Positions 2,681-55,202 of a stretch of 64,000 nucleotides of DNA are shown here, one piece after another (positions within the stretch are counted from its first letter, which is position 1; each line of letters starts with the position of its first letter). The stretch comes from Leptolyngbya sp. SIOISBB (GTDB lineage Bacteria > Cyanobacteriota > Cyanobacteriia > Phormidesmidales > Phormidesmidaceae): assembly GCA_010671905.1 (NCBI GenBank), contig JAAHII010000001.1, positions 7,588,026 to 7,652,025 of the forward strand, read 5' to 3'. The translations under genes and the position numbers were made by a program. The notes under the pieces are model-generated. The model made no database searches. It had not been told where the DNA came from and saw only the letters and a list, made by a program, of their open reading frames with translations.

Positions 2681-3688
2681 ATGGGTGGTTTATTAGTTCA
2701 TTTACGAAAATTTGTCGCGATTGTCGCGATCGCGTTTCTGTGCTTTGGCTGCAGCAACGCCTTTTTGCCAGATTTAGAAAACAACCCTTGGGAGGTTGTC
2801 CATCTAGATACAGAGGCGACTTTCTCAGACATTGCCTTTACTAGTGATGCCAAGCGTGGCTGGCTGGTGGGCAGCCGCAACACCCTGATGGAAACTCGTG
2901 ATGGTGGCATGACCTGGTCCCAGCGATCGCTGGATTTAGGGGATCAAGGTTTTACGTTTACCTCGGTCAGCTTTGCTGAGAACGAAGGCTGGGTGGCGGG
3001 GCAGCCGCGGATTTTGCTGCATACAATCGATGGTGGCGATACTTGGGAGCGTGTACCGCTCAGCGCCAAGTTGCCTGGTAGCCCGTTACTCATTACTGCC
3101 TTGGCCGCCCAGGAAGCAGAACTCGCAACCGATGTCGGGGCCATTTACCGGACGCGAGATGGTGGTCAAAACTGGAAGGGTCTTGTTCTGGGGGCAGTTG
3201 GCGTGGTTCGGAATATGAGCCGCAGCCCGAGCGGCAGTTATGCGGCGGTGTCTTCTCGCGGTAACTTCTACTCTCTATGGACCCCTGGTGAGTTGGAATG
3301 GCATCCCTACAATCGGGAAAGTTCTCGCCGTCTACAAAACATTGGCTTTGACCGAGATGGTGGTTTGTGGCTACTAGAGCGAGGCGGGCAAATTCAATTT
3401 TCCCCCACGGGAGAAGAGGATGATTGGCAAGAACCGATCACCCCTGAACTTGCCACGAGTTGGGGTTTTCTGGATGCAGCCTTTCGCACTCCTGAAGAAC
3501 TCTGGGTCTCGGGCGGGAGTGGGACACTCTATTTCAGTCCCGATGACGGTCTAACTTGGTTTAAGGATGCTGAGATTGATCAGGTACCCTCTAACCTCTA
3601 TACGATTGTCTTTAACACGCCAGAGCAGGGCTTCATTTTGGGCCAGAATGGCTATCTGTTGCGGTATGCTGGCTCGCAGGCGGTTTGA
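2681..3688 (+). CDS. ycf48: Photosystem II assembly factor Ycf48 (HCF136-like)
   Basis: 335 residues. After a short hydrophobic leader comes a lipobox-like CFGC with cysteine 24, so it is probably a lipoprotein facing the thylakoid lumen or periplasm. The position three residues before that cysteine is Cys rather than Leu, so the box is not ideal. The body has repeated blades containing TRDGG.xW and TxDGGDTWE-type motifs, as expected for the seven-bladed propeller that binds the D1 precursor during photosystem II assembly. The gene lies between rubA and psbE, its usual place. Confidence 0.94.
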   Translation: MGGLLVHLRKFVAIVAIAFLCFGCSNAFLPDLENNPWEVVHLDTEATFSDIAFTSDAKRGWLVGSRNTLMETRDGGMTWSQRSLDLGDQGFTFTSVSFAENEGWVAGQPRILLHTIDGGDTWERVPLSAKLPGSPLLITALAAQEAELATDVGAIYRTRDGGQNWKGLVLGAVGVVRNMSRSPSGSYAAVSSRGNFYSLWTPGELEWHPYNRESSRRLQNIGFDRDGGLWLLERGGQIQFSPTGEEDDWQEPITPELATSWGFLDAAFRTPEELWVSGGSGTLYFSPDDGLTWFKDAEIDQVPSNLYTIVFNTPEQGFILGQNGYLLRYAGSQAV

Positions 3689-4844: not shown

Positions 4845-5823
4845 TTAGCCGTCAGCCTGCCAACCCAGTGGTCCAGTCTGTAATTTGAATTGGTGTTCTA
4901 CCAAAAAGGCTTCATTGGGCAGTTTACGCTCTCCTTGATGCCGACGAAAAAGCATGGCAAACGCCCCTGCCCCTAAGCGAGAATGCGGCCAGAGCCGATA
5001 ACAAGGCAAATCTGTCAAGTGTGACTGATATGCGGCCAGAGCGTTTACTTGAACGCCCTGAAAATCAGGGAACCGTTTGAGAAACCATTGACAAACCTGC
5101 TCATTTTCTGCCGGAGCATAGGTGCAGGTAGAGTAGAGCAAATAGCCATCTGACTCCACCAGTTGAGCGGCATTGGCCAAGATTCGCTTTTGCCGATTGG
5201 CATTACGGTTGAGGGTGACCTTGTGGAAGCAGCCTGGCACAGCTTGGCCCTTGGCTAATAAAGATTGCCCCGAACAGGGCGCATCGACCAAAACTAATTG
5301 GGCTGAGTTAGGCAAATGCTCTGCTAGGGTAGCCGGGTCCTGATTCAAGACGATCGCATCCATCACACCGCAGCGTTTGAGATTGGCAATCAGAATTCTA
5401 ACCCGCTTGCGAATCGCCTCATTACACAACAAGCGCTGCGGTCGGAGCATGACCCAAGTACACAAACTCTTGCCCCCAGGAGCTGCACAAAGATCGATCG
5501 CGACCTTAATCGGCTCGGCGATCGCTTGTATCAGCGACACCGCAAATACGGATGAAAAATCTAAACAATAGTAATAGCCCTGATGGTGGAGCGGGTGCTG
5601 GCCAGGGCGTCGATTCCCCAGGAGTCGCTCCACCTGAGCGGGTTGCCAAGGCAGGGGGAGCAACGGTGGGCCAGTCAAGCTCATGGGGCTTGGGCTGGGT
5701 CCATAGGATCGTCGGCGGTAGCGGCATTGGTGCCGTTAACGCCTCGATAAAAGCAGTGCGATCGCCCTCGTCAGCAAAGAGTTTCTGGGCCAGTTTCAGT
5801 AATTGTTTTGAAGGCTCACTCAT
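4845..5823 (-). CDS. RsmB/NOP-family RNA cytosine-C5 methyltransferase, frame broken once
   Basis: Two overlapping frames together make one RsmB-like methyltransferase of about 325 residues that adds a methyl group to C5 of cytosine in rRNA or tRNA. The first, from ATG 5823, gives the N terminus MSEPSKQLLKLAQKLF. The second carries the SAM-binding motif DLCAAPGGKS, the catalytic DAPCSG and the YSTCTY motif. Removing one base from the GGGGG run at 5654-5658 joins them as TVAPLPWQPAQVERLLG, which reads naturally. Either the run is miscounted or the gene is recently inactivated. Family assignment is secure; exact RNA target is not. Confidence 0.85.
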
Positions 5824-5994
5824 AACTGTTTGATTTCCGTCGCGGCCTCGTCGGTAAGATCCGTCATCGTTAGATCGGTACAGAAAGCGCCAGCACGCTT
5901 AATGCAGACACTTTTGAGAAAGCCGATCATCAATCGTTACTCCTAACTCAGATAAACCCTCTAGACTGTAAAGAGATGTAAAACCTCACCTGTC

Positions 5995-6771
5995 ATGTTC
6001 ACCACTTGGCTCGACAACAATAGCTGGCTATGGGAAATTGCGGATCAAAAGATTCTCGTCGACCCTTGGCTGATTGGCGCTTTGACCTTTGGCAATGCCA
6101 GTTGGTTATTTAAGGGCGAAAAAAAGCAGCCTCAGCCATTACCCAAGGACATTAACTTCATCCTGTTAACTCAAGGATTGGAAGATCACGCCCATCCCGA
6201 AACGTTACAGGCCCTCGATAAGTCAATTCCGGTGGTGGGTTCTCCGAATGCCGCGAAGGTCGTGCGCGAGTTGGGCTTTACTGATGTGACTGTGCTTGAC
6301 CATGGGCAGTCAACCACGCGTGGCGGTGCCACGATTAAGGCTGTCCCCGGTTCTCCCATCGGCCCAACGTTATTAGAAAATGGCTATATCGTCACGGAAA
6401 CTGCCACCGGGTTCAAGCTCTTTTACGAGCCTCACGGTTATCACCAAGCAGAGCTCAAACAGGAAGCTCCCGTAGACGTGGTGTTGACCCCGATGTTGAC
6501 CTTGTCGCTGCCCTTGGTGGGGCCGATTATTCGCGGCCTTAAAAGTGCTGGCGAACTGGCTAATTGGCTACAGCCACAAGTGATGTTGCCCACTACAGAC
6601 GCTCAAGAAACGGTCTATGAGGGGCTGCTTGTTTCCATCCTCAAGGCTACAGACGGGGCGGAAAAAGTGCGAGAGCAGTTAGCTGCCCAGGGCAAATCCA
6701 TTCAGGTACTAGAGCCTACGGTGGGCGATCGCTTAGAGCTTCCCTTAACGCCTCGTCCAGTGACGGTTTAG
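5995..6771 (+). CDS. MBL-fold metal-dependent hydrolase (UlaG-like)
   Basis: 258 residues with a metallo-beta-lactamase-like fold, seen in the opening WLDNNSWLWEIADQKILVDPW and in LLTQGLEDHAHPETL. The latter stands where the usual HxHxDH metal motif would be, but only its second half (EDHAH) is conserved. A later DHGQ, EPHGYH and TPM pattern follows the same superfamily. The substrate is unknown. Related proteins are common in cyanobacteria and plants. It converges on the next gene with four bases between the stop codons. Confidence 0.8.
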   Translation: MFTTWLDNNSWLWEIADQKILVDPWLIGALTFGNASWLFKGEKKQPQPLPKDINFILLTQGLEDHAHPETLQALDKSIPVVGSPNAAKVVRELGFTDVTVLDHGQSTTRGGATIKAVPGSPIGPTLLENGYIVTETATGFKLFYEPHGYHQAELKQEAPVDVVLTPMLTLSLPLVGPIIRGLKSAGELANWLQPQVMLPTTDAQETVYEGLLVSILKATDGAEKVREQLAAQGKSIQVLEPTVGDRLELPLTPRPVTV

Positions 6772-10479: not shown

Positions 10480-10902
10480 TGGACAAATAGAGTTGTGCCG
10501 GCGCTGCAACCACAGGCTGTGAGTTCCTCAAACTAGACAATGAAGCCGATTGTTGAGTGTCCTTGCAAGGACAAAGTTTCCGGGGTGGGTGAAACTTGAC
10601 CAGTGGACAGGGGCCGCGCAGGTGCAACCGGGTGCCTTTGGGGCATCCAGAGGGAATCCCTCGGGTTTTGGGCGGCGGGACCCGGAACCCAATCTGCTGA
10701 ATAAGTTGGGCAAAGCCACGTTGCGCCTGTCGGGGGCGTGCGTTGCTGCGTTTTCGCTCTGGACGTGTAGCGCTGCCAAGGCAACGGCAATGCCTCCACG
10801 AGATTGCGAGCTAACCAGAGTTGTCCGTAAGCGAGGCTGACCAAACGCACTGCGCTGATTTCGTAGGGAGCACGTCATCCCCCAGCGGATGACGTGCTCC
10901 TT
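10480..10902. other. GC-rich block of hairpins, possible structured RNA
   Basis: No gene is supported here, although minus-strand frames are open. Successive strong hairpins are visible: the 16-bp palindrome TGTCCTTGCAAGGACA at 10558-10573, AAGTTTC/GAAACTT at about 10574-10598, GGGTGCC/GGCATCC, GAGGG-AAT-CCCTC and CTCTGG/CCAGAG. A perfect 14-bp hairpin at 10868-10901 closes the block. GC content is clearly above the flanks. It may be a structured non-coding RNA or the RNA-encoding end of a transposon. I match no known family. Confidence 0.4.
10868..10901. terminator. Strong hairpin downstream of the phosphoesterase gene
   Basis: Perfect inverted repeat GGAGCACGTCATCC / GGATGACGTGCTCC around a six-base loop. 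It lies 23 bases past the stop codon of the minus-strand phosphoesterase gene. There is no clear T tract on either strand, so it may be a transcript-end stabiliser rather than a classical terminator. Confidence 0.5.
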
Positions 10903-52680: not shown

Positions 52681-53277
52681 TTATTCCCCTTTACTCTCAT
52701 AGGTCATTTCTATCAGTCTCTCAAGCGTCTTTTCTCGAATAGAGGGGTCGTCAAAATTGGTACCCAACATTTCTGTTGACCATAACCCTTCGGATGCGAG
52801 GTAAACGAGATTTGCCTGGACAAGATCAAGGCCGCAGTTGTAAATCTGCTGCCGCCAGCTTTCGACCTGGGCTTCAATTTGCTGCATACTCTCTGAGCTA
52901 AGCGAAGTAGAGTATGCAGCAAATATACCGGCCAACAGGGCAAAGGGAACCTGGGCGCTGTGAAACGTGGCCCGGATGTAGGCACGTAGCCACTTGCCGG
53001 GTTCGTTGCCACTTTCTTTCTCCAGCTCAACCTCGATCTCCTGATTGAAGGTATCAATTAGGTGCTGAATGATGCCAACAACTAACGCTTCCTTATTAGG
53101 AAAGTGATACAGCAGTCCTCCCTTGCTAATTTCAGCGACGCGGGTGACCGCATCTAGCGTCAGGGCATCATTGCCCTGTTCTATCAAAATCTGGATGGCG
53201 CTCTGAATCAGGTGCTGCCGCGTTTTGATGCTTCGTCTGTAAGTCCTTGGGCGTTTGTTGGAGTCGGAGTTTTTCAA
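52681..53277 (-). CDS. TetR-family transcriptional repressor
   Basis: 198 residues. The N-terminal helix-turn-helix is clear: TRQHLIQSAIQILIEQG, LTLDAVTRVAEISKGGLLYH and FPNKEALVVG. The C-terminal ligand domain is family-divergent. Two operator-like palindromes lie between it and the divergent channel gene, so it should repress both itself and the channel. The ligand is unknown. Confidence 0.93.
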   Translation of the reverse strand: MKNSDSNKRPRTYRRSIKTRQHLIQSAIQILIEQGNDALTLDAVTRVAEISKGGLLYHFPNKEALVVGIIQHLIDTFNQEIEVELEKESGNEPGKWLRAYIRATFHSAQVPFALLAGIFAAYSTSLSSESMQQIEAQVESWRQQIYNCGLDLVQANLVYLASEGLWSTEMLGTNFDDPSIREKTLERLIEMTYESKGE

Positions 53278-53363: not shown

Positions 53364-53379
53364 ACCGTCTAAACAGTAT
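53364..53379. promoter_or_regulatory. Second, imperfect TetR operator
   Basis: ACCGTCTAAACAGTAT matches 14 of 16 bases of the core of the perfect palindrome at 53391-53416. Two sites 27 bases apart suggest cooperative binding by the TetR dimer. Confidence 0.6.
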
Positions 53380-53390
53380 AGTTTTTCTAA

Positions 53391-53416
53391 TTTTATACCG
53401 TCTAGACGGTATAAAA
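53391..53416. promoter_or_regulatory. Perfect 26-bp palindromic operator
   Basis: The centre TATACCGTCTAGACGGTATA is flanked by TTT and AAA, giving a 26-bp perfect palindrome. It lies in the short divergent gap between a TetR gene and the channel gene it probably controls, eight bases before the GTG start at 53424. Confidence 0.85.
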
Positions 53417-53423
53417 TTGAATA

Positions 53424-54104
53424 GTGGATTATTTATGTGAGCTGATGGTCGCTAATGATTTAGATATTAAGGAACCTGCTGAACTTGAGGGCGAGATCGC
53501 GCTACAGCACCTGTCAAGGCTCAGTGATTTTATCTTTGCTCTGGCAATGGCGCTGACCTTCTGGCAGTTCGACATGCCCGAAACAGCCAGTACCCTGTCG
53601 CCCTCAGAGGTGAACCAGTTTCTGCTAGGGGAGCTCAAGCCTCTAAGTACCTACATAATTACTTTTTTGCTAATCGCGGTCTACTGGATTGCACACACTG
53701 AGCAGTTTGCACATTATCGGCGCACTAATGAGGTCCACCTGTGGATCTATGCGTTTTACCTGATGTGTTTATTTTTAGTTCCCTATTCCAATGCTGTAGC
53801 GCTTGTTTTTCCAGACAATACAGTTGCAAAAATCTGTTTTTCCGCCAACATAGCTCTAATTGGCCTCATCTCTTACCTCAGCTGGCACTACGCGACGGAT
53901 CGGAACCGGCTTGTCAAGAAAGATTTGAGCGCTGAAACTGTCACCGAGATGAAGCGAAAGGTGCTGATCGAGCCGATCTGCGCGGTGGCTGTCATTGGGG
54001 TGGCCGCTGTTTCTCCGGTCTGGTCTGATGCGGCTTGGTTACTCTTTCCCTTTGTTAATCTTGCTTTGCGGTGGTTGATCAAGCCTACTGCTACGACACT
54101 ATGA
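53424..54104 (+). CDS. TMEM175-family potassium channel-like protein
   Basis: 226 residues from GTG 53424; ATG 53445 is an alternative that moves the start away from the operator. The N-terminal motif RLSDFIFALAMALTFWQFDM is the FSD-like first helix of bacterial TMEM175 (DUF1211) channels, followed by four or five more membrane helices. Such proteins conduct potassium or related ions. Control by the divergent TetR is inferred from the operators. Confidence 0.8.
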   Translation: MDYLCELMVANDLDIKEPAELEGEIALQHLSRLSDFIFALAMALTFWQFDMPETASTLSPSEVNQFLLGELKPLSTYIITFLLIAVYWIAHTEQFAHYRRTNEVHLWIYAFYLMCLFLVPYSNAVALVFPDNTVAKICFSANIALIGLISYLSWHYATDRNRLVKKDLSAETVTEMKRKVLIEPICAVAVIGVAAVSPVWSDAAWLLFPFVNLALRWLIKPTATTL

Positions 54105-54291: not shown

Positions 54292-54897
54292 ATGAGCGAG
54301 TACATTGACCGAATCGAAACACTGACTGAAACACGGCGTAGTGAGGCTATTGATATCCTAGCGAACGCATTCTCTAACCATCCAATGTTTCCGCCGAAAC
54401 CCACTGGTCGAAGGTCGCATCTGCTGGCCGTTGCGATCCTCGATGCGTTCGCTGACGCACCCGATGCAACACTATTTGGCATCTCTCGCGATGGTGAATT
54501 AGTATGTGTGGCGTTCGCGTTCAGAGACGGGTACACGCCAAGGGGCTTAACCTTGGCATGGTTTCTGTGGCGTATGGTGAAAGTCTTCGGCTTGCGCATG
54601 TACAGTACAATGGCGTGGCGTGTAAAGTCCGATAAGTCCAGCGGCGATGAGCAACGACTAGAGCTAATATTGTTGGGCACGCGCAACGGCTGTCAGGGTC
54701 AGGGCTTGGGTCGCAAGATGCTACGCCACCTATTCGACGTTGCTCGTGAACGTGGTTACGCATTTGTGGTGCTCGAAGTTGCCAAGCAGACTCCCGCCTT
54801 TGGGTTATACCTAAGCGAAGGCTTTGAGGTGGAGAAGGAGGTCGCATTGCCGACAATGGCCATGTGTATAATGCGTCGGCCTCTGAATAGCAACTGA
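54292..54897 (+). CDS. GNAT-family N-acetyltransferase
   Basis: 201 residues. The acetyl-CoA-binding motif GCQGQGLGRKMLRHLFDVAR lies at about residues 128-147, followed by VLEVAKQTPAFGLYLSEGFE, the usual C-terminal motif. The substrate is unknown. It lies between the channel gene and a transposase remnant, in an accessory-looking segment. Confidence 0.85.
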   Translation: MSEYIDRIETLTETRRSEAIDILANAFSNHPMFPPKPTGRRSHLLAVAILDAFADAPDATLFGISRDGELVCVAFAFRDGYTPRGLTLAWFLWRMVKVFGLRMYSTMAWRVKSDKSSGDEQRLELILLGTRNGCQGQGLGRKMLRHLFDVARERGYAFVVLEVAKQTPAFGLYLSEGFEVEKEVALPTMAMCIMRRPLNSN

Positions 54898-54926: not shown

Positions 54927-55202
54927 GTGTTCTTTACCAAAGCAGGGCTGATCACTGACAAAGATCCGCTGGAGCAGGAGAAGCGGATGCACTATCTCGA
55001 TTTGGTTGCTAATGCCATCATTTTGCAAAACACTATCGATCTCTCTCAGGCTATTCAAGCTGTGCGCGATCAAGGTTTTCCGGTGACGACAGAGCTAATC
55101 GCTGGTCTCAGTGCTTACCTCACCAGCAAAATCAAGCGCTATGGCGATTACATCCTCGATATGTTGACCAAGCCCTTGCCTTTCGAGGAGATCATGGCTT
55201 AG
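54927..55202 (+). pseudogene. Tn3-family transposase, C-terminal remnant
   Basis: About 90 residues remain. EQEKRMHYLDLVANAIILQN and LSAYLTSKIKRYGDYILDM match the C-terminal end of Tn3-type TnpA. The catalytic N-terminal and middle parts are missing, so it is dead. It marks an old insertion or deletion next to the TetR-channel-acetyltransferase genes. Confidence 0.72.

Follow-up and report, generated by a model that had tools for sequence, protein, structure and literature searches.

The solved structure nearest in sequence to the repressor studied here is CgmR of Corynebacterium glutamicum (PDB 2yvh, 2yve, 2zoy, 2zoz), a TetR-family protein. Excerpts of the published accounts describe CgmR as a dimer of dimers on a 32-bp operator, able to bind ethidium and methylene blue (PMC4150764), and report that its repression of cgmAR depends on diamines, cgmA being the gene of a putative export permease (PMC4495370). 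QacR recognises 28 bp, likewise as a dimer of dimers, in the same excerpts (PMC4150764). For TMEM175 proteins the reference points are CmTMEM175 of Chamaesiphon minutus (5vre) and MtTMEM175 of Marivirga tractuosa (6hd8). The most conserved residue of MtTMEM175 is Thr38, and the T38A change strongly impairs K+ selectivity while leaving currents, as stated in parts of PMC7176437; an RxxxFSD motif joins a Trp, a His and an Asn in a network that links helices and subunits (excerpts of PMC7176437 and PMC7141809).

The locus analysed here resembles the described repressor systems in layout and departs from them in the gene that the repressor faces. In our window, a stretch of 64,000 nucleotides of Leptolyngbya sp. 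SIOISBB, a tetR gene and a TMEM175-family gene lie head to head, with 167 bp from the TTG of the former to the ATG of the latter (Table 1); an alternative GTG start at 53424 would extend the TMEM175 protein to 226 aa. The repressor carries both expected domains (PF00440, 38.7 bits for a cut-off of 24; PF17937, 66 bits for a cut-off of 26.4), and SKGGLL-HF, in the region of the recognition helix, is invariant across an 11-row TetR alignment. By sequence, the PDB protein that it matches best is CgmR, with an E of 1.1e-17 for the alignment profile; the match is distant and nearly full length. The CgmR operator is similar in length to the 30-bp palindrome of the window, but according to the excerpts CgmR represses cgmAR, with its export permease gene, whereas the window repressor faces TMEM175. 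In the same way, QacR and qacA also pair a TetR-family repressor with a membrane-protein gene, which encodes a multidrug transporter there and a predicted channel here. The predicted model of the repressor is all-helical (pLDDT 67.8, from a three-sequence alignment), and the PDB matches listed in a fold search with it were mostly TetR-type proteins, with 2yvh at rank 25; with a model of no more than moderate confidence, little can be drawn from that search.

Table 1. Features of the tetR-TMEM175 locus (positions in the window)
Feature	Position	Strand	Basis
TetR-family repressor, 198 aa, TTG start	52681..53277	-	Pfam PF00440 N-terminal HTH and PF17937 TetR_C_28 C-terminal
Weaker candidate operator core ACCGTCTAAACAGT	53364..53377	.	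2 mismatches to subfamily consensus ACCGTCYRGACGGT
Promoter-like pair for tetR, TAGACG-18 bp-TATACT, abutting the weaker site	53375..53404	-	consensus scan; 1 versus mean 1.4 in shuffles
Perfect 30-bp palindrome AATTTTATACCGTCT/AGACGGTATAAAATT, putative operator core 53397-53410	53389..53418	.	sequence
TATAAA, candidate TMEM175 -10 at the operator core end, weak -35	53410..53415	+	sequence
TMEM175-family membrane protein, 219 aa from ATG, divergent clade	53445..54104	+	Pfam PF06736

The original prediction, that a TetR repressor gene faces a TMEM175-family gene across two sites, holds: we found both genes and both sites, and comparison ties the palindrome to this TetR subfamily. Two of its measures change. 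The palindrome is indeed perfect, but 30 rather than 26 bp long, and the second site is indeed weaker, but its core starts 33 bp from the core of the strong site, about three helical turns, rather than 27 bases away; the latter figure seems to measure the distance between 53364 and the first base of the 26-mer.

The assignment of the palindrome to the repressor rests on relatives of the latter. When 95 relative genomes were queried with the TetR protein (E<=1e-15), eight gave matches, the own genome included (L024 to L031 are the loci outside it); when the 11-row TetR alignment was run against 386 genomes of the phylum (E<=1e-25), seven gave matches, again with the own genome, adding five loci (L045, L048 to L051); L046 is the same gene as L030 and represents it below. 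With two loci from a scan of TMEM175 genes (L034, L035), 15 related TetR genes outside the window were available. We scored the 200 bp upstream of each tetR start, which is uncertain for L029, against the 14-letter core ACCGTCYRGACGGT, a 16-letter pattern without its final two letters. All 15 had the core within 150 bp upstream, at 0 to 3 mismatches: eight exactly (L025, L026, L027, L029, L031, L045, L049, L050), four with one mismatch (L024, L034, L035, L028), L046 and L048 with two, and L051 with three. Among 500 shuffles per locus, none was as good as the real upstream region for 12 of the relatives, and one, two and eight were as good for L046, L048 and L051, respectively. The scores of L024 to L031 and of the window are not independent, because the consensus was partly drawn from them; the sequences of L045, L048, L049, L050 and L051, read only after the consensus was already in use, have 0, 2, 0, 0 and 3 mismatches.

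The same core might have belonged to TMEM175 genes in general, a reading that we reject. Twelve TMEM175 loci without a related TetR had no site with fewer than three mismatches near the TMEM175 gene, and their best matches anywhere in 3.5 to 8.6 kb had two to five; the two-mismatch match of L043 lies about 2.5 kb away from its TMEM175 gene, and L038 and L039 have three-mismatch matches 0.4 to 0.5 kb upstream, within the preceding gene. With the core upstream of all 15 related tetR genes examined, and no match below three mismatches near TMEM175 at the 12 loci without this TetR, the palindrome tracks the repressor and is almost certainly its operator, as judged from this comparison.

In the own genome the site has no close copy by the stricter of two patterns. 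Across its 8,337,038 bases, the 16-letter pattern ACCGTCYRGACGGTAT is matched exactly only in the window and has no occurrence with exactly one mismatch; up to three mismatches, it is found in 128 places versus 257 for a reversed control. A looser pattern has eight one-mismatch places elsewhere and 140 places in total, versus 286 for its control. A wider regulon is rejected on these counts, and the repressor looks like a local switch, with a weaker further target elsewhere in the genome a possibility.

These results suggest the following circuit. Without ligand, the repressor would occupy both sites, the strong one at the TMEM175 promoter and the weaker one at its own, keeping both genes low. 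Binding of a small molecule in the C-terminal pocket, in all likelihood a toxic compound that is lipophilic or cationic, would release the repressor, the TMEM175 protein would then be made, and it would alter ion flow across the membrane as part of the response to the compound. An operator pair of the TetR protein is almost certain on comparative grounds, and its control of the divergent TMEM175 gene very likely. The fuller statement, that both sites are operators of a TetR_C_28 (CgmR-like) repressor under which TMEM175 and tetR are subject to ligand-released control, we regard as probable. Binding, repression, the ligand class, the conductance and the benefit of the conductance are what we infer.

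How far the product can be called a channel depends on its fold and residues. The protein matches PF06736 with 63.6 bits (cut-off 25, E 2.5e-17), and its AlphaFold model, a monomer built with 11 sequences, has a pLDDT of 82.0. The 16 best PDB chains for this model are TMEM175 structures (four of the entries have generic titles and were named as TMEM175 in a separate step), after which E drops from 1.1e-3 to 0.13; Foldseek aligns it to 5vre with TM scores of 0.66 and 0.75. MtTMEM175 is absent from our 22-row alignment, and we located its residues by counting from two anchors, the FSD Asp and the Trp/His pair. On this placement the window protein shares with CmTMEM175 and MtTMEM175 the family domain, the fold and the equivalents of the network Asp, Trp74 and His77 (Asp28, Trp81 and His84), but differs from them in having Ala36 for Thr38, His22 for Arg24, Leu26 for Phe28 and Tyr102 for Asn95, so that HxxxLSD stands in place of RxxxFSD and alanine in place of the K+-selectivity threonine. 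By its modelled fold it is thus a TMEM175-family protein, one that fails two features linked to K+ channels.

These replacements are a property of a clade. The Thr38 position is Ala in 11 of the 22 rows, which form one clade (support 97/97), and Thr in the other 11. The Ala rows have His for Arg24 (10/11) and Tyr for Asn95 (11/11), and none keeps the Phe; the Thr rows all keep Arg, with Asn in six (Thr or Val in the rest) and Phe in three, so the Asn95 and Phe28 positions drift more widely. Since alanine replaces the selectivity threonine and, in most members, histidine replaces the Arg of RxxxFSD, K+ selectivity is not to be assumed, and because residues important for K+ selectivity and assembly in the studied channels are missing, we infer the channel function of the window protein. 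The proteins of this clade might even have ceased to be K+ channels and conduct another ion or move a small molecule. This is the alternative that we take most seriously, though we give it less than even weight: the shared replacements of a supported clade and the strong loss of K+ selectivity in MtTMEM175 T38A argue for it, but the window protein retains the fold and the network Asp, Trp and His, and the excerpts of PMC7176437 also report that currents persist in that mutant. In the expectation of a ligand-controlled ion channel, the words ion channel draw on family and fold, in a clade with alanine at the selectivity position and other changes in the RxxxFSD network; ligand-controlled would mean ligand-controlled transcription here, not a ligand-gated pore. 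In a sister TMEM175 group (L012, L013, L036 to L039) the Leu39 position, just after the lost threonine, is Glu in four members and Gln in two; the side chain is thus charged or polar, on a helix known to line the pore in the TMEM175s studied.

The neighbours of related repressors bear on the inducer. For the 12 relatives without TMEM175 (L025 to L031, L045, L048 to L051) we identified neighbours by Pfam (nine proteins of eight loci) or by reading translations (L025, L027, L029, L048). These relatives share with the window the repressor subfamily, the operator core and mostly its place in a promoter spacer, and differ in the gene next door: MATE transporters beside L030/L046 and L048, an MFS transporter beside L051, RND and GNAT proteins beside L026 and L027, small multidrug export proteins beside L031 (Pfam) and, by likeness, L025 and L029, cytochromes P450 beside L045 and L049, an alpha/beta hydrolase beside L028 and a short-chain dehydrogenase beside L050. 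Ten of the 12 thus adjoin an efflux gene or a P450, neighbours being assigned by position, as candidate targets of the repressor. At L035, a MATE fragment directly follows the TMEM175 gene. The neighbours of these ten relatives, with CgmR as the nearest structure, make a toxic compound the likely inducer. The original prediction had called the inducing signal unknown; on the same evidence its class is not wholly open.

The signal could instead be an ion, an osmotic cue or the state of the membrane (K+, cyclic di-AMP, a fatty acid), with the circuit serving K+ or pH balance. The family of the controlled gene includes K+/H+ channels, another TetR protein, DarR, is reported to bind cyclic di-AMP, and FadR and FasR, which act in fatty-acid control, occur by title among the fold matches of the repressor. 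Yet efflux genes or P450s adjoin 10 of the 12 relatives, and the compounds associated with CgmR in the excerpts are ethidium, methylene blue (PMC4150764) and diamines (PMC4495370). We give such a signal less than even odds, as an alternative still worth attention, and prefer a toxic compound.

The repressor and TMEM175 genes stand together in few genomes. The divergent pair is also found in G450 (L024), Tildeniella nuda (L034) and Scytonema tolypothrichoides (L035); the four paired TetRs form one clade with full support (100/100) and the four paired TMEM175s form one with modest support (85/81). L034 and L035, from two families, match at 85.5% in their DNA from the end of tetR to near the end of TMEM175, gap included, and have no DNA match outside this block in the 5.1 and 8.6 kb compared (L034 ends about 0.4 kb past TMEM175). 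Between L024 and L034 the match, at 80.8%, takes in the pair plus about 0.26 kb of adjoining sequence. A two-gene cassette that moved between lineages would be the simplest reading of these matches. At L035, a 275-bp direct repeat (2904-3178 and 5762-6035, 96% identical) flanks the block of tetR, TMEM175 and MATE fragment and could mark an insertion or duplication.

The positions of the sites relative to promoters concern which gene is controlled. Ten of the 12 relatives lacking TMEM175 have their best operator match inside the 16-18 bp spacer of the best sigma70-like pair, counting cases in which the final operator bases may extend into the -10; eight of the 12 have a perfect TTGACA. The best promoter spacer of L048 contains a weaker operator copy, and the top-ranked promoter of L027 has none, although its operator is placed as in L026. 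Toward TMEM175, the best promoter of L024 and L034 consists of TTGACA, a 19-bp spacer with the operator and TAGTAT, and L035 has a weaker -35. These three loci have one good site by TMEM175 (one mismatch), another by tetR (one or two) and a degenerate middle site (three to five), 33-36 bp apart from start to start. In the window, the site on the TMEM175 side is present, the two-mismatch site takes the middle position 33 bp from it, and there is none beside tetR; by its distance to the TMEM175-side site (36 bp there, 33 bp here), the weaker window site corresponds to their middle site. The site nearest TMEM175 lies 39-41 bp from the ATG in the three loci and 35 bp in the window, and -10-like hexamers of the three fall at, or within two bases of, the position of the window TATAAA. 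In the window itself, a consensus scan found no promoter toward TMEM175, the -35 being poor, and promoter and terminator scans gave about as many sites as shuffles. The promoter-like pair of tetR gives no support alone, because one was found versus a mean of 1.4 in shuffles.

The repressor might mainly regulate itself through the palindrome, with TMEM175 a bystander expressed constitutively or from elsewhere. That the 12 TMEM175-less relatives have the site upstream of their own tetR, and for the most part within the tetR promoter, would fit, as would the lack of a good -35 for TMEM175 in the window. However, in L024, L034 and L035 the site nearest TMEM175 sits between hexamers that point to TMEM175, a separate site lies on the tetR side, and the two genes are co-inherited, which together make the bystander improbable and control of TMEM175 by the repressor the better account.

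The least plausible alternative, a chance palindrome or a terminator hairpin, is very unlikely because the core is conserved, with 0 to 3 mismatches, upstream of all 15 related tetR genes, and we reject both forms of it: any inverted repeat can form a hairpin, but this one has arms of 15 bases versus at most 12 in 100 dinucleotide shuffles, without a loop between them or a run of T behind. The window has a single other even palindrome with arms of at least eight (arm 8, at 10558).

The pairing is rare. At E<=1e-8, a match to the window TMEM175 protein occurs in 11 of the phylum's 386 searched genomes, its own included, and PF06736 in 20 of 292; we encountered the paired form in a total of four genomes. 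A contig search with the single TMEM175 protein gave no relative, and the alignment query gave 11 loci, all cyanobacterial by their titles. The next closest TMEM175, on plasmid pA of Kovacikia minuta (L033, 50% identity), has a divergent histidine kinase and response regulator beside it and is followed by a HlyD-type protein; the operator was not found at this locus (best match, four mismatches). A second TMEM175-family gene of the own genome (L009, contig C1, 1312087-1312344) has no TetR in the 3.3-kb stretch examined. We scanned 45 TMEM175 loci, of which at least eight are second copies and at most 37 distinct, with our own TetR profile, built in part from the same TetRs, over flanks of about 1.5 or 4 kb. 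Eight of the 45 had a TetR-like frame, divergent and adjacent in four (L024, L034, L035 and L041). The last, on a Richelia metagenome contig (frames 3106-3783 and 3953-4600), pairs its TMEM175 divergently with a TetR that belongs to a different subfamily, and the operator is absent; the pairing may have arisen more than once. Among 12 annotated plasmid loci of other phyla, picked from 40 of 82 matches, the incomplete gene table gave no annotated divergent TetR; Sphingomonas naphthae has one upstream, in the same direction. Linkage of TetR and TMEM175 is not a general rule. At L012 and L013, an ABC-type ATPase on the opposite strand follows TMEM175 (by Pfam and by reading, respectively), followed in L012 by a TetR gene.

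The claim of a new regulatory circuit stands in part: the layout is that of a textbook TetR system, and what is new is the gene controlled. Circuits of this type are common; a target gene such as this one, with an altered pore in its product, is not. A whole-word literature search for TMEM175 or DUF1211 with TetR, in a corpus with most subscription papers outside it, gave no paper linking them; titles and abstract openings on TMEM175 and cyanobacteria contained no such circuit, and the operator letters retrieved a single yeast paper, unrelated by its title and abstract opening. We know of no established cellular role of bacterial TMEM175 proteins. A conserved operator with its regulator offers a direct handle on it, as the compound that releases the repressor would tell under which conditions the cell requires the protein. 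On TMEM175 selectivity, the clade offers a natural experiment, because it has replaced the threonine responsible for selectivity as well as parts of the RxxxFSD network. For the TetR field, the locus extends to a predicted channel the range of genes that neighbour a subfamily otherwise seen mostly next to efflux genes and P450s. A bolder synthesis would be that a toxin-sensing repressor of the drug-pump type was rewired to a TMEM175 with an altered pore (no selectivity threonine and a remodelled RxxxFSD network), whose shift of membrane potential or pH would lower the accumulation of the toxin, a lipophilic cation or similar, the pair acting as a mobile two-gene resistance cassette; we consider this speculative and rather unlikely in its entirety.

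Two further features follow the pair in the window. After a gap of 187 bp comes a GNAT acetyltransferase gene (54292-54897, + strand). No such gene was seen directly after TMEM175 in L034 or L035; the related tetR genes of L026 and L027 are also followed by a GNAT gene, that of L026 with 25% identity. Next to the GNAT gene of the window, a fragment matching the C-terminal end of Tn3-type transposases (54927-55202, + strand) is a sign of past transposition near the tetR-TMEM175 unit.
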